Assembly (NCBI RefSeq): GCF_002006795.1
Contig: NZ_MVDN01000018.1
Coordinates: 1,329 to 34,371, forward strand
Origin: Wohlfahrtiimonas populi
GTDB taxonomy: Bacteria; Pseudomonadota; Gammaproteobacteria; Cardiobacteriales; Wohlfahrtiimonadaceae
Length of the DNA stretch: 33,043 nt
Reading direction: 5' to 3'
Shown here: positions 2,732-29,052 of the stretch, in pieces
Position numbering within the stretch: position 1 is the stretch's first letter
Layout of the letters: each line of letters starts with the position of its first letter
Notes under the pieces: model-generated
What the model saw: only the letters and a program-made list of their open reading frames with translations
Database searches by the model: none
Told to the model about the DNA's origin: nothing
Translations under genes and position numbers: made by a program

Positions 2732-4535
2732 GTTACTGGATTATGCGAAGCAATCAGGATTTTTCAACAGCATTGATTACCATTTTGCAAAAGTTGTTGC
2801 GCCTGAGAATCTACAACATCAATTGATCGCGCTCCTAACAAGCCATGCTTATGGTATGAAGCATACGATGATTCCGCGTAGTTTCTTATATCAATCCAAT
2901 GATTGGATTTCTGATATCAATTATGAAAAAGCTATTGAATGTAGTAATACTTTAAAAGCTTTAGCTAACATTGATAGCCAAGCAGATTGGGATCAAGTTT
3001 TAAGCGAAATTCAGCATAAAAAGAATTTTCCCATCAGCGTTACTGAAGCAGGAATTTATCTCACAAAAAACCTTAATTATGAAAAGATCATTGTGGATTT
3101 TCTTAAAGCCAATCAACAAAGCACCATTGATCAGCCTTCAGAACAAACAATCGCCCTATTGCATGAACTATTCCCTAAAGAAGAAATTTTAAATAAACAG
3201 AAATTAGCCGCTGCTAATGTATTATTATCGCCTGTTTCAATCATTTCTGGTGGCCCAGGTACGGGCAAAACAACAACTGTTATTAAAGTTCTATTATTGT
3301 TATTGAATGAACATCCTGATTTACATATATCTCTAACAGCGCCAACAGGTAAAGCTGCTGCACGCTTAAGTGAATCCATCGAGAAACAAAAAAGCCAATT
3401 CAAAACATCACATCCTGAATTAGTAGATTTACTCGATAAAATTCCCAATAACAGTACAACTCTGCATCGCTTATTGAGTTTTAACCCTAGCCAAATTAAA
3501 CCAAGATTTCATTCCTATCATCCTTTGCCCACAGATTTAATCATCATCGATGAAGCATCCATGATTGATTTATATATCTTCAATCTATTGATTCAGGCTT
3601 TGCCACAGAATATTCGCATGATTATTTTAGGTGATAAAGATCAATTAGCATCTGTAGAAGCTGGCGCAATCATGGGCGAAATCTGCCAAGACATTGGTTA
3701 TGACCAAACTCGATTAACGCAATTGGAATCCATCGTTAGGCAATCATTAACAGCAGAATTCCTACCTAAAACTGTTCCTTTAAATAATGTGACATTATTA
3801 ACAGAGAGCCACCGCTTCTCTGCTGATTCAGGTATTGGTCAATTATCCAAAGCAGTGAATGAGCAAAAATATCGTGCATTTTTACCGACCATAGAAAAAC
3901 ATCCTGAAGAGCTAACCTTCATTAATTCACGTGATGAAGATTGGTTACAGCCCATCAATGATTTATTGAAGCCTTATATTGAACTATGCAAAACTGAAAC
4001 ATCACCCGAAGAATTATTCAAAGCATTGCATCAAGTCAGAATCCTATGTGCCACAAACATTTCAGAATTTGGCACAAAAGCTATCAATGAATATATCAGC
4101 ACACAATTATTCAAACTTGAAGATGATCGCCAGCTTTATCATGGCCAAGCGATTATGATTTTACAAAATGATTATGTGAATCATATCTTCAATGGCGATG
4201 TTGGTATCATTGTGCGAGAAGATAATCGTTTAATTGCTTATTTTGAAAGTGATAATGGCGAATTGCGGTATATTCCTGTTCAGCTTTTACCACAATATGA
4301 AACAGCATTTGCGATGACAATTCACAAATCACAAGGCAGTGAATTTGATCATGTGATTATTGTATTACCTGATTTCTCTAGTCAAATTCTCACGAAAGAG
4401 CTGTTATATACTGGCATCACACGCGCTAAAAATAATCTCACTATTATTGGCACGCCTTACAATATTCGCCAAACTATTGAGCGAAAAACTGAGAGATTCA
4501 GTGGGATTAGCCATCAATTACTCAATAAAATTTGA
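2724..4535 (+). CDS. recD: Exodeoxyribonuclease V (RecBCD) alpha subunit RecD
   Basis: RecD is the 5'-3' superfamily 1B helicase of RecBCD. The 603 residues match the family's usual length of about 600. Residues 1-150 form the poorly conserved N-terminal domain that contacts RecB and RecC. Walker A (GGPGTGKTTT) starts near residue 176, the Walker B DEASMID follows near 275, then GDKDQLASVEAGA near 310. The C-terminal 2B motif MTIHKSQGSEFDHV and the final YTGITRAKNNL complete the helicase. The ATG at 2724 sits inside the last codons of recB (ATGAGTAA overlap), and recB supplies the coupling. At the 3' end it overlaps the convergent SseB-like gene by 18 bases, so no terminator separates the two transcripts. 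Confidence 0.96.
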   Translation: MSKLLDYAKQSGFFNSIDYHFAKVVAPENLQHQLIALLTSHAYGMKHTMIPRSFLYQSNDWISDINYEKAIECSNTLKALANIDSQADWDQVLSEIQHKKNFPISVTEAGIYLTKNLNYEKIIVDFLKANQQSTIDQPSEQTIALLHELFPKEEILNKQKLAAANVLLSPVSIISGGPGTGKTTTVIKVLLLLLNEHPDLHISLTAPTGKAAARLSESIEKQKSQFKTSHPELVDLLDKIPNNSTTLHRLLSFNPSQIKPRFHSYHPLPTDLIIIDEASMIDLYIFNLLIQALPQNIRMIILGDKDQLASVEAGAIMGEICQDIGYDQTRLTQLESIVRQSLTAEFLPKTVPLNNVTLLTESHRFSADSGIGQLSKAVNEQKYRAFLPTIEKHPEELTFINSRDEDWLQPINDLLKPYIELCKTETSPEELFKALHQVRILCATNISEFGTKAINEYISTQLFKLEDDRQLYHGQAIMILQNDYVNHIFNGDVGIIVREDNRLIAYFESDNGELRYIPVQLLPQYETAFAMTIHKSQGSEFDHVIIVLPDFSSQILTKELLYTGITRAKNNLTIIGTPYNIRQTIERKTERFSGISHQLLNKI

Positions 4536-5408
4536 ATCAACAACAACTGATAGCTGACGGCGCACATTGAACCATCGTTTAATGGCGCCTTGCGGTTTCT
4601 CTCGATCAAACACTAAACAGCCATATCGGCTAACAACATCTTTAATCCAAGCTTCACTGCTTTTATAATCTTCAACAACGATACTCAATGGAATCTTAAA
4701 ATTATCGCCTAACTGTTTAGCTAGCAATACTTGCAAATCTGACTGTAAAATTTGCCATTGATTATTAGATAAACCACCATCCACAACGATATATATGGAT
4801 ATACCCTCGGCAAATAACCATAATCGATTAATTAATATATGTTCAGATGCAAATTGATAACTATATTTCTTTAATTCTTTAGCACTAATCATATTCCATA
4901 TTTGCACAGCATGCTCTGGCATCAAAACATGAGGATTGGCATACAATACTTTGGCGATATTCAACAAATTAATGGGCGAGAGAATGATTGGTGATTCGTA
5001 TTCAGAATGATTTAATGCTTCACTATGATGAAGTATTATCATGCATGATGAATTTTGATGCACGACGATTTCAGGTAATGCAAGGCTTGCCCATCCAAAA
5101 GTATTCTTTAAAATCGAAATATCTTTTGTTAGATGATTTGGAATACATTCTTTGCCAATGCTTTCATCCAAAAAAACATGCAAGTACATCGTATTCTTAC
5201 CACTTTCATCTTTTATCTCAGTGATCAAAGGGCGAATATTAGCTAATCCTTCACCTTCATTATTAATAAATGCGTTATTTGTATTTGGGATAAATACTTC
5301 TAGCGATTGCATCGCTGCGCCATTGGCTAATAATCTTTGCACATTATCGGGATTAAATTCATCCTCCGCCATTTGATGTAAGATGTGAATTAACTTCTGC
5401 TTTTGCAT
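4518..5408 (-). CDS. SseB-like protein, copy 1 (tandem paralogue)
   Basis: This 296-residue soluble protein has no signal peptide or membrane segment. Its layout, an N-terminal beta-rich segment with VFIPN near residue 38 and VFLDES near 79 followed by a C-terminal alpha/beta segment, resembles the SseB (enhanced serine sensitivity) family, but the match is by pattern only. It is clearly paralogous to the next gene upstream (5472-6362). Both are 296 residues and share the YQFA block near 187, the LYIVVDG or IYIVVDG block near 207, the LVFD near 264 and a C-terminal WFN-x-RR-x-L. A weak purine-rich Shine-Dalgarno (GAGAAAG) precedes the ATG. The 3' end overlaps recD convergently. The biochemical function of SseB-type proteins is not established, so no pathway is assigned. 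Confidence 0.7.
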   Translation of the reverse strand: MQKQKLIHILHQMAEDEFNPDNVQRLLANGAAMQSLEVFIPNTNNAFINNEGEGLANIRPLITEIKDESGKNTMYLHVFLDESIGKECIPNHLTKDISILKNTFGWASLALPEIVVHQNSSCMIILHHSEALNHSEYESPIILSPINLLNIAKVLYANPHVLMPEHAVQIWNMISAKELKKYSYQFASEHILINRLWLFAEGISIYIVVDGGLSNNQWQILQSDLQVLLAKQLGDNFKIPLSIVVEDYKSSEAWIKDVVSRYGCLVFDREKPQGAIKRWFNVRRQLSVVVDSNFIE

Positions 5409-5471
5409 GCTTTCTCATTCCGAATGATTCTTTTGGCATTTATTATTCTAAAAGTTGGGACATTTCACAAA

Positions 5472-6362
5472 CTATTCAGCTAATTCTGGGGCAACCAAAA
5501 CTGGTAACAATCGTCGAGCATTAAACCATTGCCCAATCATTCCTTTAGTCTGAGACTTATCAAAAACTAAACCACCATAAGACTCAATACCTTCTTTGAT
5601 CAACTCATCAATATCTTTATAATTTTGCACAATCACATCCACATTAATACTTAAACGCTTCTCGACCTGCTGTTTCAATAACAATTGTACCTCTGACTGA
5701 AAGTTTTTTTCCTGTTCATTGGACAAGCTACCATCCACAACAATATATAAAAACGCACCCATTGCACACATCCAAACGCGATCTACCGTAGGATGATTCA
5801 AAGCAAATTGATAACCATATTGTTTCAGCTTTTTAACATTAATTGCTCCCCAAAGCTCTTTAGATAAAGTTGGTGTATTAATCAAAGAATGTACTGTTAA
5901 AATTCTCTCAATTTGCGGAAGCATTACTTCTGTCAAAATCAATAACGATGTTTTAGTTTCTGACTCTAAATCGCTGTAATGATACACAAACATATAAGGC
6001 ATTTTTTGTTTGCCCAACAACTTTGGTAAATCCATAACTGACCAAGCAAAATTAGTTTCCAATAATGCTGTAGAACTTAAAACTTCTTCATCAAAATATG
6101 TTTCACTTGCTGCTTTATCTAGAAAAAGATGCACGCACATAATTTCTGTTTTATCTGTATCACCGCTCACGACTGTAATAAATGGTTCAATAGCCATTTG
6201 TGCTGGGCTATTTTCATCAATCGCTTCACCATTCATATTCGGTAAAAATACTGGTAATGCTGATATTTCATTTATGTTTTCTAATAGTTTTTGTGTATTT
6301 TCCTGTGAAGCATCTTCTTCAGTTACTTTTTGTAATAATTGAATCAACTCTTGATCTTGCAT
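5472..6362 (-). CDS. SseB-like protein, copy 2 (tandem paralogue)
   Basis: This gene encodes a 296-residue cytoplasmic protein paralogous to the one at 4518-5408, from which it is separated by 63 bases. The two are probably co-transcribed, with this gene first. Conserved features are VFLPN near residue 38, LFLDKA near 79, KQYGYQFA near 183, LYIVVDGSLSN near 206 and the terminal GQWFNARRLLPV. The N-terminal half is much more diverged than the C-terminal half, which suggests that the C-terminal domain carries the shared fold or function. AGGAAAG lies about ten bases before the ATG. It is downstream of lpdA on the same strand, but a strong terminator at 6446-6481 separates them, so it likely has its own promoter in 6363-6445. 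The SseB-like assignment is tentative. Confidence 0.7.
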   Translation of the reverse strand: MQDQELIQLLQKVTEEDASQENTQKLLENINEISALPVFLPNMNGEAIDENSPAQMAIEPFITVVSGDTDKTEIMCVHLFLDKAASETYFDEEVLSSTALLETNFAWSVMDLPKLLGKQKMPYMFVYHYSDLESETKTSLLILTEVMLPQIERILTVHSLINTPTLSKELWGAINVKKLKQYGYQFALNHPTVDRVWMCAMGAFLYIVVDGSLSNEQEKNFQSEVQLLLKQQVEKRLSINVDVIVQNYKDIDELIKEGIESYGGLVFDKSQTKGMIGQWFNARRLLPVLVAPELAE

Positions 6363-20132: not shown

Positions 20133-20162
20133 ATTTCATGATGATTATTTATCCAGTTGAAC

Positions 20163-20168
20163 TATAAT
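20163..20168 (+). promoter_or_regulatory. Consensus -10 element ahead of the DUF1287 gene
   Basis: A perfect TATAAT lies 22 bases before the preferred ATG. No good -35 element is found at 16-18 bases upstream, so activity is uncertain. Confidence 0.4.
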
Positions 20169-20189
20169 AGGGCAATCATAATTATCATA

Positions 20190-20774
20190 ATGCCAAATAT
20201 CATGATCAAACAAATATCGCTCGCTGTTTTACTCACCTCAATGTCTTTAAGCTTTGCTAATGATGTTTCTGATGCTGCCAAATCTATCGTCAATCGCTTA
20301 GTGATCTACGATGGTCGCTATGAGAAAATTGATTATCCTAATGGTGATGTTTCACCCAATCGAGGTGTTTGTACTGATGTTGTGATTCGTGCTTATCGCA
20401 AGCTAGATATTGATCTCCAAAAGCTTGTGCATGAAGATATGAAGCAGAATTTCAGCCAATATCCAAGCCAAAGAATGTGGGGATTAAAATCTACAGATCG
20501 TAATATTGATCATCGCCGTGTGCCCAATTTAGAGAAATTCTTTGAGCGCAATGGTAAATCTCTATCCTTATCTAAAAATGCGGAAGATTATAAAGCTGGT
20601 GATATTGTTTCATGGCGCTTAGATAATGGCTTGCCACATATCGGCATTGTGATTGATCAAAAATCTAAAGATGGCAAACGCCCTTTAGTGGTTCACAATA
20701 TTGGCTTTGGACAAGTCCCTGAAGATGTTCTATTTAATTGGAAAATGATTGGGCATTATCGTTATCAACCATAA
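20190..20774 (+). CDS. DUF1287-family secreted protein, NlpC/P60-like cysteine hydrolase fold
   Basis: The protein has a Sec signal peptide (MIKQISLAVLLTSMSLSFA) and a mature domain that reads as a full DUF1287 member. Visible blocks are YDGRYEKIDYPNGD, NRGVCTDVVIRAYR with the candidate nucleophile Cys61, IDHRRVPNLEKFF, AGDIVSWRL, LPHIGIVID with the candidate catalytic His, and VVHNIGFG. The Cys-then-His order fits the papain/NlpC-like amidase superfamily, so a peptidoglycan or peptide amidase acting in the periplasm is plausible but unproven. ATG 20190 is chosen; ATG 20202 and TTG 20157 are alternatives, and none has a clear Shine-Dalgarno. Its 3' end overlaps the first possible start of the secreted-paralogue array by 37 bases. 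Confidence 0.85.
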   Translation: MPNIMIKQISLAVLLTSMSLSFANDVSDAAKSIVNRLVIYDGRYEKIDYPNGDVSPNRGVCTDVVIRAYRKLDIDLQKLVHEDMKQNFSQYPSQRMWGLKSTDRNIDHRRVPNLEKFFERNGKSLSLSKNAEDYKAGDIVSWRLDNGLPHIGIVIDQKSKDGKRPLVVHNIGFGQVPEDVLFNWKMIGHYRYQP

Positions 20775-21712
20775 AATCAAGCACAATATCAATAAAAATA
20801 ATAACTATATTAATTCTTTGTTTAACCGCATCATTATCCTTGGCTCACTCTACACTATCTTATAAAGAAAGAGGGGATGCATTTGCTTATGATTATTCAG
20901 AGATATGCACTGATAATGTAAATTGTGATTTAACATTAATTAATCGCATTCCTCAAAATATTAATCTTTGGCTAGATACTATTGGTTATCCAAAAATTTT
21001 CTCATCAGCTCCACCTGAAACTTTTCTGCCCCACTTTCCCTATAGAGCGACTACTGCAAATTATTTCGGCTTTGCATCAGAAACAGATCAAAATATTCAC
21101 TTTTATTATCATCCTTTGGCGAAATTCTCTTCTCCATCTGATGCCAATGCTTATTTTAATATCCATATTCTGAATAATATGCCTAATAATCAATTAGGTT
21201 ATTTACGTTGGATAACCTATGATTTTCAAATATCCAATGATCAACATAGAACATCTACCGAAGTCTACCAAAAAAGTTATTTTTTATCATTTGGAACTTT
21301 TATCATTCAAAAATTCAAGGATATTGAAACAAACCTCATTTATATATTTACAAAGGAAGACCTTAACAAGGTAGAATTATCCTATAAATCTCAATTATGG
21401 CCTAAAAAATATAATCTGATACCTCAAAAATTTGAAAAAATGCCATATCCTTATTACATTAATAAAAATGATTTGTACCTTTTTAACATGAGAGAAACTT
21501 ATTTTCCTTCAGAAGTACTGATAACAATAAAAAATAAAGATAAAAATATTTATTCCCTCTCGAATAAAACAAAATATATCCAAAATTCATACTTTTGTTT
21601 ATCCACACCCAAAGAATATTCTATTTCTAATAATTGGTTAGCAGAAAACCATTGTCGAGAATTTAAATTAGCACCATCAATCTCTATAGAAATTAACATC
21701 GACGAGATCTAG
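20738..21712 (+). CDS. Secreted paralogue 1 of a four-gene tandem array, ancestral start codon lost
   Basis: I do not recognise the family. The open frame carries a signal peptide matching the other copies (KIITILILCLTASLSLAHS), then AFAYDYSEICTDNVNC (Cys-x4-5-Cys module), a SPSDANAYFNIHILNN block, GYLRWITYDF and a short LAPSISIEI tail like that of copies 2 and 3. At the position of the paralogues' ATG it has ATA (20792-20794), and the TAGGAATATTGAT leader of copies 3 and 4 has decayed to a form lacking AGGA. The only upstream start is TTG 20738, inside the DUF1287 gene, which would lengthen the signal peptide's n-region to about 19 residues. The rest of the frame is free of stops for over 300 codons. 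It may be a recently silenced copy or one translated by coupling to the upstream gene. Confidence 0.55.
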   Translation: MENDWALSLSTIKSSTISIKIITILILCLTASLSLAHSTLSYKERGDAFAYDYSEICTDNVNCDLTLINRIPQNINLWLDTIGYPKIFSSAPPETFLPHFPYRATTANYFGFASETDQNIHFYYHPLAKFSSPSDANAYFNIHILNNMPNNQLGYLRWITYDFQISNDQHRTSTEVYQKSYFLSFGTFIIQKFKDIETNLIYIFTKEDLNKVELSYKSQLWPKKYNLIPQKFEKMPYPYYINKNDLYLFNMRETYFPSEVLITIKNKDKNIYSLSNKTKYIQNSYFCLSTPKEYSISNNWLAENHCREFKLAPSISIEINIDEI

Positions 21713-21723
21713 AGGTTATTGAT

Positions 21724-22569
21724 ATGAAAATAATAACTATATTAAGCCTTTGTTTAACTGCATCATTATCATTTGTTCACTCTGAAACATTAGATAAAAC
21801 AAATGATAATATTTTTACTTATGATTATTCACAAGTATGCGCTGATACTAAAAACTGTATTTTTCCAGCAACATTTGATGCCCTGTATAAAAAAACCTAT
21901 AGCTTTTTTGATATCTATGACTTTACTGAATGCACTAATTCAGAATTTATTACTGATGTTCATGACATTCCTCCTTGCCCCATCCAATATAAAGATTTGA
22001 GTATAAAAAAGTATGGTTTTTCATCAAAAACTGATGCCAATGCTTATTTAAATATTTTAGATCCGATTCCATCACCTCAAATATCTTCTTTAGGAAACTC
22101 ACGTAGTATTATTTTTGATTTCAATATCTCGATTAATCAAGATGCATCAATTATAGAAATACAGCAAAATCAATATATGCTTGGATTTGGAGCAAAAAAA
22201 GTAAAACGATTAGGGCAACTCACCAATCCTAAGCTATTGAATATTATACAAGAACCTAATAACCAATCTATCTTTAGACGAAGATTTACTTTGGTATATG
22301 AGCATGCGAATAAAGAAATATGCCCACAAGTATTTAAATTAAATTTCATTTATTTAATTCCAATACAACCCCCTTCAAAAATATATGCACAAACTAATCA
22401 AGATGGTAGTTACAGCATCATGAATCAAAATGAGAATGAAAAGCAAGCCTTTATCTGCCCTAAGATTCCGGATGAAATTCGCTCTATTGCAGATTTAGAG
22501 AAAAAATATGGATGCCAACGAATACAACTAGCACCATCAAGCTCTATAGAAATAAAACCACAAGAATAA
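21724..22569 (+). CDS. Secreted paralogue 2 of the tandem array, function unknown
   Basis: This is a 281-residue secreted protein with a Sec signal peptide (KIITILSLCLTASLSFVHS). The N-terminal module FTYDYSQVCADTKNC matches the other copies, followed by additional cysteines (ECTNSEF, IPPCPIQ) and the SKTDANAYLNIL block. The middle part diverges strongly. The C-terminal 70 residues (KIYAQTNQDGSYS through CPKIPDEIRSIADLEKKYGC to SSSIEIKP) are nearly identical to those of copy 3, indicating recent exchange. The ATG at 21724 lies 11 bases after the copy 1 stop with a weak GAGG. The paired cysteines suggest a disulfide-stabilised periplasmic or exported protein. There are no catalytic motifs that I can name. 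Confidence 0.75.
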   Translation: MKIITILSLCLTASLSFVHSETLDKTNDNIFTYDYSQVCADTKNCIFPATFDALYKKTYSFFDIYDFTECTNSEFITDVHDIPPCPIQYKDLSIKKYGFSSKTDANAYLNILDPIPSPQISSLGNSRSIIFDFNISINQDASIIEIQQNQYMLGFGAKKVKRLGQLTNPKLLNIIQEPNNQSIFRRRFTLVYEHANKEICPQVFKLNFIYLIPIQPPSKIYAQTNQDGSYSIMNQNENEKQAFICPKIPDEIRSIADLEKKYGCQRIQLAPSSSIEIKPQE

Positions 22570-22705
22570 CTAGGAATATTGATATGAAAAAGATATTAGC
22601 AATCATTATTAATTTGGCAATATCATTATCATTTGCTCACTCTGAAACTCAAGATAAAGTAAAAGATGATGTTTTTACTTATAATGACTCAGGATTATGT
22701 GAAGA
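22351..22705 (+). repeat. Direct repeat A of the tandem array (copy 2 end to copy 3 start)
   Basis: It matches 23490-23844 without gaps at an offset of 1139 bases. By eye there are about 33 mismatches over the first 300 positions (about 89% identity). The repeat covers the 3' end of one gene, the intergenic leader and the signal peptide of the next, the footprint expected from tandem duplication. Confidence 0.85.
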
Positions 22706-23705
22706 TATTCCAAATTGCTATCCTTCAATGAAAAACCTTCCTGAGATTGATGACAATTCACAATTTCCACCAATGCCACTACGTGTTGGAAAATCAGCAT
22801 CAGCATGTGGAGCATCTTTTGGGAGTAATTTTAGCTTTATTATTGCTGGAGCAGATGGCGGCAGAAAAATTATAAATTCTAATAAAAAAATAGATGAATA
22901 TGAAGCCATATACAATAAGTACAGTGCATTAGGTTTTCCATCAGAAGCAAATGCCAATACTTTTTTTAATATCCATATTTTAAATAATACTTCTAGCAGT
23001 CGACTTGGTTATTTACGTTGGATAAACTATGATTTTAATCTGATCATTGATCGAGATGCATCTGCTGTTGAACTACATAAAAATAGTTATTTGATGAATT
23101 TTGGCACAACCATAACAAAACAATTAGCACATCAAAAAGACTCTAAAATATTACATATAGCATCAATGCAAGACCTAAAAAACCCCACAACTAATCCAAC
23201 AGCAGTACAACCATATATCATCATTCCTCAATTATTTAAGGTATTTAATAATTCAATAGTAGGTTTAAGTGATAGTTCTATGTCTATAGTAAGTAGTTCT
23301 CCTAGGCATACATCCAACGATAGATTAGAATCCTTCTATCCTACAACTTGCGTGTATAAAACTAAAGAACCTATCAGTATCATCCAACAACCTAAGAATC
23401 AAATAATTTCCACCAAAATAATGAACTTTGTGCATGAACAAATTAATGACTGGTACTGCCCTGAAGCATTTGCAAAAACGTATCCATTATATTTAATTCC
23501 AATACAAACTCCATCAAAAATATATGCACAAACTAATCAAACTGGCAGTTACAGTATCGTGAATCAAAATGAGAATGAAGAGCAAGCCTTTATCTGCCCT
23601 AAGATTCCTGACGAAATTCGTTCTATTGCAGATTTAGAGAAAAAGCATGGATGTCAACAAGTGCATCTAGTACCATCAAGCTCTATAGAAATAAAACCAC
23701 AATAA
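22584..23705 (+). CDS. Secreted paralogue 3 of the tandem array, function unknown
   Basis: This is a 373-residue secreted protein, the longest copy. The start is ATG 22584, with TAGGA upstream and a signal peptide (KKILAIIINLAISLSFAHS); a longer reading from 22512 overlaps copy 2 and is rejected. Module order is FTYNDSGLCEDIPNC, a Gly/Ser-rich insertion with GKSASACGASFGS unique to this copy, FPSEANANTFFNIHILNN, GYLRWINYDFN and YLMNFGTTITKQL. A low-complexity Ser/Thr/Pro insertion and the C-terminal block CPKIPDEIRSIADLEKKHGC, shared with copy 2, complete it. It lies 14 bases after copy 2 and 17 before copy 4, so one transcript is likely. Confidence 0.75.
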   Translation: MKKILAIIINLAISLSFAHSETQDKVKDDVFTYNDSGLCEDIPNCYPSMKNLPEIDDNSQFPPMPLRVGKSASACGASFGSNFSFIIAGADGGRKIINSNKKIDEYEAIYNKYSALGFPSEANANTFFNIHILNNTSSSRLGYLRWINYDFNLIIDRDASAVELHKNSYLMNFGTTITKQLAHQKDSKILHIASMQDLKNPTTNPTAVQPYIIIPQLFKVFNNSIVGLSDSSMSIVSSSPRHTSNDRLESFYPTTCVYKTKEPISIIQQPKNQIISTKIMNFVHEQINDWYCPEAFAKTYPLYLIPIQTPSKIYAQTNQTGSYSIVNQNENEEQAFICPKIPDEIRSIADLEKKHGCQQVHLVPSSSIEIKPQ

Positions 23706-23844
23706 TAGCTAGGAATATTGATATGAAAAAGGTATTAGCAATTATTATTTATTTAACTGCATCATTATCATTTGTTCATTCTGAAATATTAGATAAAATA
23801 AATGATGATGCTTTTACTTATGATTATTCAGGATTGTGTTCTAA
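23490..23844 (+). repeat. Direct repeat B of the tandem array (copy 3 end to copy 4 start)
   Basis: This is the second copy of the repeat at 22351-22705. The best-conserved stretch runs through the C-terminal block and the TAGGAATATTGATATG leader. Confidence 0.85.
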
Positions 23845-24505
23845 TACACAACACTGTCAATTGATAAAGTACTATGACATATGTAGTGCTGTTTTGGTGA
23901 GTAGTTGTGGCAATCCTCACGATTTTCTAGGTGGTTACATGTGTCCCGTCTATCGCAGGGAACCCCCCATATATACTCCACCCAAATATCTAGAGTTTCC
24001 ATCAGAAGCAAATGCCAATGCTTTTTTTAATATCCATATTTTGAATAATTCACCTAACAGCCAGCTAGGTTATTTACGGTGGATAACTTATAAATTTAGC
24101 GATTCTATTAAAAGCTATATAATAAATTTTGGTGCAACGATAACAGAACACCTAGTACCACCATTATTCCCACTTTATAAAACGCTCAACGATATAACTG
24201 ACAATACCTTCACTTATAAATATTTATGGCTATGTAATGATGCTATGAACTGCCAATTTATTAAACTCTCAGACATATGCGATACATCTCCAAAACCCCC
24301 AGCACCTCTACGATTCTCTTATGGCCATTATTATCCAGAGACAACTAACCACGACTGCACATCATTTCTAAGCATTCCAACATTATTACAAGGTTTTTCA
24401 TCAGAAGCTGATGCCAGTATTAACATTCAGCTTTTTGATTCACCTACTGCTCTAAAAGATAAAGATAAACAAAATCACTCAACTAAAATTAAACATGATT
24501 TTTAA
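23723..24505 (+). CDS. Secreted paralogue 4 of the tandem array, with internally duplicated module
   Basis: This is a 260-residue secreted protein. ATG 23723 has TAGGA upstream and a signal peptide (KKVLAIIIYLTASLSFVHS). It contains two copies of the N-terminal unit. The first has FTYDYSGLCSNTQHC and FPSEANANAFFNIHILNN, the second FTYKYLWLCNDAMNC (near base 24200) and GFSSEADASINIQLF. Both units share the following IKxxDIC. It then ends abruptly at KIKHDF and lacks the CPKIPDEIRS C-terminal block of copies 2 and 3. Traces of the family's 3' sequence (AAGCTCTAT at 24505-24513) lie just beyond the stop, which suggests that the tail was lost by deletion. Function is unknown and it may be a degenerate copy. 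Confidence 0.65.
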   Translation: MKKVLAIIIYLTASLSFVHSEILDKINDDAFTYDYSGLCSNTQHCQLIKYYDICSAVLVSSCGNPHDFLGGYMCPVYRREPPIYTPPKYLEFPSEANANAFFNIHILNNSPNSQLGYLRWITYKFSDSIKSYIINFGATITEHLVPPLFPLYKTLNDITDNTFTYKYLWLCNDAMNCQFIKLSDICDTSPKPPAPLRFSYGHYYPETTNHDCTSFLSIPTLLQGFSSEADASINIQLFDSPTALKDKDKQNHSTKIKHDF

Positions 24506-24623: not shown

Positions 24624-25139
24624 CTATTTAACAGCTTCTATTGTTTGGCGTGGATAGAGATAACGGCCAGGGCTAAATTCCCACCAATCATCATCGTATT
24701 TATTTGGGAATTGGCTTGTCCAAGCGCGGTAATCACTAGCTTTTACTTTTAGGATTGTTATGTCATTGCCTGCGATATTTTCTTTGCTCAAGCTTTCAAC
24801 ATTGCCCAAAACCACAACACGATCACCAATCACAGTACCATCAAAGTCAAAGCGTACTTCTGGTGTAAAGGTTACGATAATACGTTCATTCGGCACATTA
24901 GTACCTTGCACAGGATACCCTGAACTATTGATAGTGCGCTTGATGATCTCCATCTGCTTTTTATTTGCATCAATAATCGCAATTTCACCACCAACGTAAA
25001 CGCGTTGCCCGACAGCTTCTTTCGCTGGCATATTTGCAATTTCATCAAATCTTGTTGCACCTTCAGCTTGATGCACTAAAAAATTTGTCATACAGCCCTG
25101 CAACGCAAAAATTGTTGCCAATAGCATTATCTTTTTCAT
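24624..25139 (-). CDS. Slp-family outer membrane lipoprotein
   Basis: This 171-residue protein has a lipoprotein signal peptide ending in the lipobox LQGC (Cys16), so it is probably acylated and anchored in the outer membrane (no Asp follows the Cys). The mature part matches the layout of the Slp/YeaY family: VGQRVYVGGEIAII, a variable middle with PVQGTNVPNERIIVTF, GDRVVVLGNVES, and ITILKVKASDYRAWTSQ near the end. The similarity is to the family as a whole, not to Slp itself. Slp of E. coli is starvation-induced and its molecular role is unclear. GGAAAAAAG precedes the ATG. It is monocistronic, with its own terminator, and divergent from the PhzF-family gene. Confidence 0.8.
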   Translation of the reverse strand: MKKIMLLATIFALQGCMTNFLVHQAEGATRFDEIANMPAKEAVGQRVYVGGEIAIIDANKKQMEIIKRTINSSGYPVQGTNVPNERIIVTFTPEVRFDFDGTVIGDRVVVLGNVESLSKENIAGNDITILKVKASDYRAWTSQFPNKYDDDWWEFSPGRYLYPRQTIEAVK

Positions 25140-26190: not shown

Positions 26191-26727
26191 ATGGAAGGAA
26201 TAGCAGTTTTAATTCAACTATTAGGTTTAATTATTCCTGATGCACCTAATATTAAAGAAGAAAAAACTTACAGAAAAGTTCGCCGTTATTCATGTATTAG
26301 CTACGCGTGGTACTGCTTTTATCGCTTTTTTCTTATTTTTTTGGGCATCTTTCTTTCCTTAATCATTCTCATTATATTCCCCAATTATTGGGGGATCACA
26401 GGCACCTTATTAGGTTTCTATTTTATTGGATATGCTAGCATTAACTTTTTCACCATTGTACAAGCTCGCAAAAAGCCGTTTAAAGGCATTTTTACTGATC
26501 GTGAATATAAAAACTTAACAAAAAAAGAATGTAATTATCGCTTAACATTACAATTAATCGCTACTTTTGGTTGTTTTACGTTCTTTTTAGCAGGATTCAC
26601 AACATTTGAATCGAATGGATTAATTTGGTTTTGGGGTATTTTATTTGCTTGGCCACCATTCTTGTCTTTATATGATATGTACCAAAAATATCAAGAATGG
26701 CGACTAGCTCAATCTACAGTTAAATAA
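26191..26727 (+). CDS. Four-segment inner membrane protein of unknown function
   Basis: I do not recognise the family. The 178-residue product has four predicted membrane segments near residues 44-64, 68-88, 117-137 and 143-161, with a basic cytoplasmic loop (QARKKPFKGIF) between the second and third. The short amphipathic N-terminus contains GLIIPDAPNIKEEK, followed by a Tyr/Cys-rich run into the first segment. AAGGAAAG precedes the ATG. It follows the PhzF-family gene by 19 bases and overlaps the convergent MORN lipoprotein gene by 8 bases at its 3' end. Confidence 0.7.
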   Translation: MEGIAVLIQLLGLIIPDAPNIKEEKTYRKVRRYSCISYAWYCFYRFFLIFLGIFLSLIILIIFPNYWGITGTLLGFYFIGYASINFFTIVQARKKPFKGIFTDREYKNLTKKECNYRLTLQLIATFGCFTFFLAGFTTFESNGLIWFWGILFAWPPFLSLYDMYQKYQEWRLAQSTVK

Positions 26728-27864: not shown

Positions 27865-27942
27865 TATTTTTCCTAAATTAACTGTTACATTAATTTTTAC
27901 CTAGGATGATTATAACCAATATTGTTAATACTTATAAAATAT

Positions 27943-29052
27943 ATGAGTTTTGATTTGTACATGAATAAACTACGCTCTCTAGTTAGCTCAATGTTACAAT
28001 TAACAAGATATATACAAACCATAAATTTCAATGATATGAATACAAAACAAAATTTCTATGCCACCACTCTATCTTGGTTATTTGTATTAGCATTTATAGT
28101 TATTCCTTTGCTATATCGAATATTATCTAATTTTATAATGAATCAAACTCTAGACAATTTTGATCTGTATTTCATTCTACCGCTCACAATATTATCAATA
28201 TTACTTACCCTCAAAGGTTTTAAAGATTGGCGTAAAAGCAATATTTCCATTTCTAGCCAAGAAATTATTTTATACTCTGGCATCAGAAAAAAATTGATCA
28301 TTCCTTGGAAGAACATCCAATCTCTTCAATACACGATTATTCCTAATCAAATGAGAATACTACTTGGCTATCGCTCTGAGCATATCATTATCACGTACTA
28401 CGACCATCATGTCACCTTACAAACAAAGCAAATTCCTCTAGCAAATTTTTTCAAGTACTCTCAAAAGTCTGCTTTTGAAATGATTGAAAGCCAATATTTT
28501 AAAAATACTCAACGCATCAAGGAACCTAAAACACCTAAATTGAATGAAGTAGTCAAATATAATGCTCTCAATATTTTTTCATCTCATGTCATACTTATCC
28601 TGTGTATTGTACTATTCCTTGGCATCACTATCATTACAGAGAATCTATATACAATGCTTGCTCTGATAGCAATGATTCCATACTTTCTATATTCTAATTA
28701 TAAAAAACATAGAAAAATTGCATTAATCATGACTCAAGATGGTATTCAAGACCAATGGTTATATCAACGAAATACTTTTATCGCTTGGGCAGATATTCAA
28801 GCTATATCTATGAACGATTATAATAATGCTTATTTCATGGATACAACGCCATTGGGTCGAGTCATTACGATTACATTGAAAGATCAAAATATTTATAGCC
28901 AAAAGTGCAACGTTTATCAAAGGCTATTATTGAAGTTTGGACAAGAAAATAAACAAACGCCTTTTCTTATCACTGAAAACTTACAAGATTATTCTCTTGA
29001 TGAAATTCTTATCGCTCTTCAACAAAACTTATCACGATTTACACATGAATAA
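27943..29052 (+). CDS. Membrane protein with two PH-like halves, function unknown
   Basis: The product is about 369 residues from ATG 27943; ATG 27961 and ATG 28036 are alternatives, and none has a visible Shine-Dalgarno. It consists of two similar halves. Each has a pair of membrane segments (near residues 43-64 and 75-92, then 211-233 and 238-252) followed by a beta-rich domain. The domains share a parallel motif: IIPWKNIQSLQY in the first half and FIAWADIQAISM in the second. This resembles bacterial PH-domain membrane proteins, in which such segments sit at the membrane surface, but the assignment is by pattern only. AT-content is high. The 3' end overlaps recG convergently by 14 bases. 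Confidence 0.65.
   Translation: MSFDLYMNKLRSLVSSMLQLTRYIQTINFNDMNTKQNFYATTLSWLFVLAFIVIPLLYRILSNFIMNQTLDNFDLYFILPLTILSILLTLKGFKDWRKSNISISSQEIILYSGIRKKLIIPWKNIQSLQYTIIPNQMRILLGYRSEHIIITYYDHHVTLQTKQIPLANFFKYSQKSAFEMIESQYFKNTQRIKEPKTPKLNEVVKYNALNIFSSHVILILCIVLFLGITIITENLYTMLALIAMIPYFLYSNYKKHRKIALIMTQDGIQDQWLYQRNTFIAWADIQAISMNDYNNAYFMDTTPLGRVITITLKDQNIYSQKCNVYQRLLLKFGQENKQTPFLITENLQDYSLDEILIALQQNLSRFTHE

Follow-up and report, generated by a model that had tools for sequence, protein, structure and literature searches.

Lineage-restricted tandem arrays of genes for exported orphan proteins are a familiar kind of genomic feature. Polyimmunity loci, as presented by Zhang et al. (2012, PMC3482391), are tandem arrangements of same-strand paralogues with short gaps and no other gene between them; gene number differs between related genomes, domains may be fused within one protein, the immunity proteins are nearly all cytoplasmic and sorted into families, and a recombinase gene lies beside the locus in several cases. 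The lpl cluster of Staphylococcus aureus (PMC4470592) is a tandem array of exported paralogues, and TilA (PMC10730906) is an exported S. aureus immunity lipoprotein that neutralises a toxin, giving immunity outside the cytoplasm a precedent. The array considered here comprises four genes, C1 to C4, of Wohlfahrtiimonas populi (NCBI RefSeq assembly GCF_002006795.1, contig NZ_MVDN01000018.1, forward-strand positions 1,329 to 34,371; this stretch of 33,043 nucleotides is the window, and coordinates below count from its first nucleotide). At a probability of about 0.42, features of their sequences would mark C1 to C4 as members of a young family, restricted to the genus, of periplasmic or surface proteins that are exported by Sec and bear paired cysteines; its copies would recombine, and its products may serve as exported binding or inhibitory proteins with shifting targets.

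The array resembles polyimmunity loci in that its paralogues stand in tandem on one strand with short gaps (11, 14 and 17 nucleotides between C1 and C2, C2 and C3, and C3 and C4) and no gene between them, in that gene number differs between related genomes (four in W. populi versus one in its sister species, Wohlfahrtiimonas larvae kbl006), and in the fusion of domains within one protein, C4. Unlike polyimmunity loci, it has signal-peptide-like starts and no library family match. A reading of the list of open reading frames in the window, some of which were also scanned against libraries, brought up neither a recognisable toxin nor a recognisable recombinase. The likeness to lpl and TilA is one of layout and kind; in contrast to both, the array has no lipobox cysteine after its signal region and belongs to a different phylum.

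A preliminary description of the window had reported four adjacent, related, secreted-like frames, and this is confirmed. C1 (20792-21712, plus strand) encodes 306 residues when read from an ATA codon, and C2 (21724-22569, plus), C3 (22584-23705, plus) and C4 (23723-24505, plus) encode 281, 373 and 260 residues from ATG codons, the mechanical open reading frames of C3 and C4 reaching further upstream to 22512 and 23651. In BLAST comparisons of mature regions, the six pairs among C1 to C4 score 48-152 bits, whereas the 30 shuffles made of each pair never exceed 22.3 bits. The G+C content of the array genes is 28-33%, compared with 37-42% in five neighbouring genes. Upstream of C1 by 17 nucleotides is a DUF1287 gene (20157-20774, plus; PF06940, E = 3.4e-71) of an amidase-like family with a signal-like start, preceded by genes that are presumably sdhCDAB, to judge by their translations; downstream, a gene for an Slp-type lipoprotein (24624-25139, minus; PF03843, E = 4e-10) converges on C4. 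The short same-strand gaps from the DUF1287 gene onward suggest a single transcript, so that the DUF1287 gene and C1 to C4 most likely form one operon. A promoter scan gave 27 sites against a shuffle mean of 32.7, no excess over shuffles, and a terminator scan gave one site against a shuffle mean of 2.2.

The start of C1 is anomalous. Where the other copies begin, C1 has ATA and no ATG, GTG or TTG, with the 306-codon frame open; an in-frame TTG lies upstream at 20738, and no ribosome-binding site is clear by eye. The last observation means little, because the kbl006 gene, which has a standard start at the same place, has no clear ribosome-binding site either. C1 may be weakly translated, may use the TTG at 20738, or may have been silenced recently; one wrongly sequenced base is another possible source of the ATA.

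Inspection of the first 22 residues of C1 to C4 shows Sec-type starts, with a basic beginning and a hydrophobic stretch followed by A-H-S or V-H-S, and with small residues ahead of the predicted cleavage site. Hydrophobicity over 12 residues reaches 2.2-2.8 at the N-terminus versus maxima of 1.2-1.7 further along the same proteins. Judged by this hydropathy and inspection, C1 to C4 are probably exported by Sec, in support of the earlier proposal of an export-signal-bearing family, and a periplasmic or surface location is predicted. There is no cysteine near residue 20 that could belong to a lipobox, the first cysteines being at residue 10 (C1 and C2, within the hydrophobic part) and residue 39 (all four). 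The signal regions had been called near-identical, which they are not: the first eleven or so residues form two types, one in C1 and C2 and the other in C3 and C4, and identity across residues 1-45 is 42-62% in the six pairs.

The mature proteins are assembled from two kinds of unit. Module A opens with a CX5C motif, from which a middle that varies in length leads to a core block containing S-x-x-[DN]-A. The approximate bounds of the core block, from alignment, are 21089-21316 in C1, 21985-22221 in C2 (the most divergent), 22896-23129 in C3 and 23960-24163 in C4, all on the plus strand. Two motifs of the preliminary description recur as given: F-x-Y-x4-[LIV]-C-x4-[NH]-C is present in all four copies, and GYLRWI-x-Y follows S-x-x-[DN]-A in the core block of C1, C3 and C4. 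A third, S-x-[AT]-[ND]-A-x3-[FL]-N-I, holds for C2, C3 and C4 but not for C1, which has S at the [AT] place. Domain B, a C-terminal unit with its own CX18C pair, is common to C1 (21443-21709, plus), C2 (22306-22566, plus) and C3 (23445-23702, plus; all bounds approximate) and absent from C4. A self-match (score 75 over 24 residues) and alignment place within C4 a second, truncated module A without a signal peptide (residues ~150-260; 24170-24502, plus). The mature regions of C1, C2, C3 and C4 contain 4, 7, 7 and 9 cysteines, respectively, and disulphides would form through the CX5C pair of module A and the CX18C pair of domain B.

None of the libraries used recognises the family, as had been surmised; there were only sub-threshold matches. 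Neither Pfam nor NCBIfam gave anything above curated cut-offs for C1 to C4 (best E 0.068). Apart from that one match, to FliO, nothing in Pfam, NCBIfam or PADLOC reached even E 1 for C1 to C4, and no recognised immunity family was matched. With C1 to C4 and the kbl006 gene as queries, the best match in PHROGs and PADLOC, which were used without curated cut-offs, had E 0.16, and the best in a PDB profile search had E 0.36. The individual candidates were rejected: FliO (PF04347; E 0.068) lies under the cut-off and was matched by C2 only, phrog_2682 (E 0.16, for C3) is confined to the signal region, and the PDB matches, to carcinoembryonic antigen and RagB/SusD, have E 0.36 and 1.4, respectively. 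A mobile element or phage source is unsupported, with no relative found among phage records queried with C3, plasmids queried with C2 and C3, or IMG/VR, where scans seeded by short peptide patterns, which distant relatives could escape, gave 183, 5 and 152 pattern matches and none confirmed. A scan of genome contigs with C3 gave 20 pattern matches and no relative, though it may omit near relatives, and it did not return kbl006. The array is not mentioned in the titles and abstract openings of literature on DUF1287, Wohlfahrtiimonas larvae, Wohlfahrtiimonas secreted tandem genes or lineage-specific tandem expansions.

The distribution of the family is narrow. In the W. populi genome (2.78 Mb, 74 contigs), all eight matches at E ≤0.01 are at the array, and one weak match (E 0.11) is elsewhere. 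Matches were found in 2 of 57 relatives, 2 of 32 genomes of the order, 1 of 369 in a sample of the class and 1 of 398 in a sample of the phylum; these sets overlap, and the lone class and phylum match is W. populi itself. The family thus occurs, among the genomes searched, in only two of six Wohlfahrtiimonas genomes, W. populi and W. larvae kbl006 (G004), in agreement with its description as lineage-specific. The copy-number comparison that had been proposed, made between two species with one genome each, sets four genes in W. populi against one gene of 274 residues at the same site in kbl006; an identical sequence of the latter is on contig NZ_MVDO01000243.1. Among the genomes without the family, sdhB is followed by a PhzF-like gene in G001 and G003 and by a gene for an outer-membrane-like protein in G005; no sdhB was found in G002, so the site comparison covers the other three. 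DUF1287 has no match in any of the four Wohlfahrtiimonas genomes that lack the array family. The presence of the family and DUF1287 in two species only, together with the sdhB site without them in congeners, points to a clade-specific gain of both between sdhB and its former neighbour.

One proposal is that C1 to C4 act in the periplasm as inhibitors of the adjoining DUF1287 amidase-like enzyme or as immunity proteins for it. The array and the DUF1287 gene are on the same strand, 17 nucleotides apart, and share their site in W. populi and in kbl006 alike, with DUF1287 unmatched in the other four genus genomes; DUF1287 is placed, as a family of unknown function, in a group with NlpC/P60, CHAP and amidase families in the portion of PMC10318531 that treats it. 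Such a partnership is nevertheless improbable. By eye, nothing of the sort neighbours the gene at seventeen DUF1287 loci of other genomes (nearby frames of at least 80 residues, judged by their first 70 residues), the family profiles match nothing at 60 DUF1287 loci except kbl006's own gene, and DUF1287 is nearly static (omega 0.05) while the array is fast, unlike a co-evolving pair. No similarity was seen between DUF1287 proteins and the array, and DUF1287 occurs elsewhere without the array. It would likewise be a long shot to regard C1 to C4 as immunity or inhibitor proteins of a new class, periplasmic and with disulphides, encoded by a self-shuffling array whose members are remade through recombination, and perhaps guarding the cell wall against foreign or own DUF1287-type amidases.

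The single kbl006 gene is, by segment-wise comparison with the four copies, a mosaic with a C1/C2-like start and a C4-like tail. Its residues 1-24 match C2 at 19 of 24 positions and C1 at 17 of 21, more than C4 (11 of 24) or C3 (10 of 20); residues 24-50 match best to C4 (14 of 25) and C3 (12 of 27). The middle is perhaps C3-like, with residues 70-112 matching C3 best (14 of 32, z 5.0; next C1, z 1.6). C4 is matched at 33 of 35 positions by residues 140-175 and at 36 of 43 by residues 165-207, and residues 46-80 and 205-240 have no good match to any copy (best z 1.3 and 2.7, respectively). Both cysteines of the first CX5C pair are missing from this gene. Within the array, a 300-nucleotide repeat that spans the end of C2 and the start of C3 (22351-22650, plus) is 88% identical to one that spans the end of C3 and the start of C4 (23490-23789, plus), and the pair can be read as the mark of duplication of a 1139-bp unit.

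The age of the duplications is uncertain. Synonymous divergence (pS) between the tails of C4 and the kbl006 gene is 0.22 in the first part, 0.49 in the last part and 0.30 overall; between the species, pS in the flanking genes is 0.19 for sdhB, 0.27 for DUF1287, 0.32 for an IspB-like gene, 0.47 for Slp and 0.48 for PhzF. Paralogous segments within the window have pS of 0.24-0.74. The paralogue and species ranges overlap, so some duplications, such as those that separate the C1 tail from the tails of C2 and C3 (pS 0.69 and 0.74), probably predate the divergence of the two species, whereas others may have come later. These values lean towards an older array that later shrank by recombination in kbl006, expansion in W. 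populi from one mosaic gene being a possible alternative direction. Both assemblies are drafts (74 contigs for W. populi, about 280 for kbl006), and collapse of copies during assembly is possible but unlikely because identity is below 90%. Of the earlier picture of a family diversifying by duplication, the change in copy number stands; that picture is incomplete in that mosaics also arise by recombination, which probably deletes copies as well, and in that some of the copies look weakened.

Comparison of substitution patterns indicates that the array frames are under selection, if loosely, purifying selection being weak in the tails. Omega is 0.45 (bootstrap 0.27-0.76) for the tails of C4 and the kbl006 gene, 0.38 (bootstrap 0.21-0.67) for the tails of C2 and C3, and 0.16-0.73 for ten pairs of core blocks. 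The flanking genes are under far tighter constraint than the array, with omega of 0 for sdhB, 0.03 for the IspB-like gene, 0.05 for DUF1287, 0.12 for PhzF and 0.17 for Slp. The five long frames (C1 to C4 and the kbl006 gene) are free of internal stops. When neutral evolution was simulated from each of the five, with 400 runs per gene, at most 1.5% of runs were stop-free at 0.1 substitutions per site and 0-0.25% at 0.2 substitutions per site, where the mean was 7-10 stops per gene. The simulation and the paralogy scores relative to shuffles rule out chance open frames.

These data bear on a different account, in which the array is a set of decaying orphans, of little use today if any, that persist by chance while they drift and shrink. 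Its appeal is that C1 has no standard start codon, C4 has no domain B, and kbl006 has a single gene without either cysteine of the first CX5C pair, while constraint on the array is weak beside that on the flanks and omega could be near 1 for five of the ten core-block pairs. Decay of the whole array is nonetheless rather unlikely, given five stop-free frames where the neutral runs at 0.2 substitutions per site average 7-10 stops in a gene, and given the bootstrap support for omega below 1 in the tails of C4/kbl006 and C2/C3.

In the preferred reading, of exported binding or inhibitory proteins, the genes would occupy a site of gene turnover downstream of sdhCDAB, where they would share an operon with the DUF1287 amidase-like gene. 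Unequal recombination wherever starts, tails or cores are alike would add, fuse and delete copies, and the output would be a changing mosaic set in which the kind of export signal and the core stay constant and the middles differ. The products would then be exported proteins under loose sequence constraint that bind or inhibit shifting targets. A role in antagonism or akin to immunity is favoured over one in metabolism as a guess, and binding or conflict as the role of C1 to C4 is likewise conjecture.

Several observations weigh against this reading. The odd number of mature cysteines in C2, C3 and C4 means that not all of them can pair within one chain. Structure prediction of the shared modules, as suggested in the preliminary description, gave no usable fold, the AlphaFold models having a mean pLDDT of 33.5 for C3 and 46.3 for the C1 core block. 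The upper bootstrap bound of omega exceeds 1 in five of ten core-block pairs (C1-C2, C2-C3, C2-C4, C2-kbl006 and C3-kbl006), and omega for ten pairs of the first 45 residues, calculated without bootstrap, is 0.33-1.01, which fits relaxed constraint too. Some copies seem to be decaying, to judge by the C1 start codon, the truncation of C4 and the absence of the first CX5C pair from the kbl006 gene, and the same traits speak against simple expansion. The type VI secretion system (T6SS) family PF05943 has no match in the W. populi genome, although an Escherichia coli control was matched, so there is no T6SS context for immunity; a search of the same genome for the two-partner secretion (TPS) family PF05860 was uninformative, its control giving no match.

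The targets might instead belong to a host, if C1 to C4 are surface or secreted interaction factors that act on or in fly larvae. The export signal, the rapid change, the restriction to the W. larvae clade and the association of the genus with flies, as given in abstracts, are all compatible with such a role. It is unlikely, however, as neither a motif or fold for host interaction nor a link to a secretion system turned up, and nothing sets the array apart from other fast-evolving orphan families.

The surroundings of the array have features of their own. In kbl006, two genes that the window lacks (L079, 5359-6482) lie between the array gene and the Slp gene, one of them a DUF488 gene and the other outer-membrane-like; the protein beside sdhB in G005 looks similar to the latter. 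In the window, the frames at 26191-26727 and 27922-29052 have no Pfam match and no counterpart at the kbl006 locus, and the interval downstream of the array therefore also varies in gene content. The Slp-type lipoprotein has a second relative, 51% identical, elsewhere in the W. populi genome (contig 34), and among 18 genomes of the bacterial family that were searched, a close relative (79%) only in kbl006. Two adjacent minus-strand frames of 296 residues each at 4518-6362 appear by eye to be a tandem pair of paralogues; neither matches Pfam at E ≤0.01. In G005, a 1706-residue frame (L078, 17-5137) adjoins the IspB-like gene near the end of a contig stretch; that it is adhesin-like is a guess from its first residues and repeats.

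The array is a clean case of an orphan, probably exported protein family in a fly-associated genus, one species of which infects people. Its site holds no such gene in three readable congeners, one in the nearest species and four in W. populi, which makes the gain, shuffling and loss of exported orphans traceable. Should the proteins prove to be protective or to act on a host, the array would show what the clade is adapting to.

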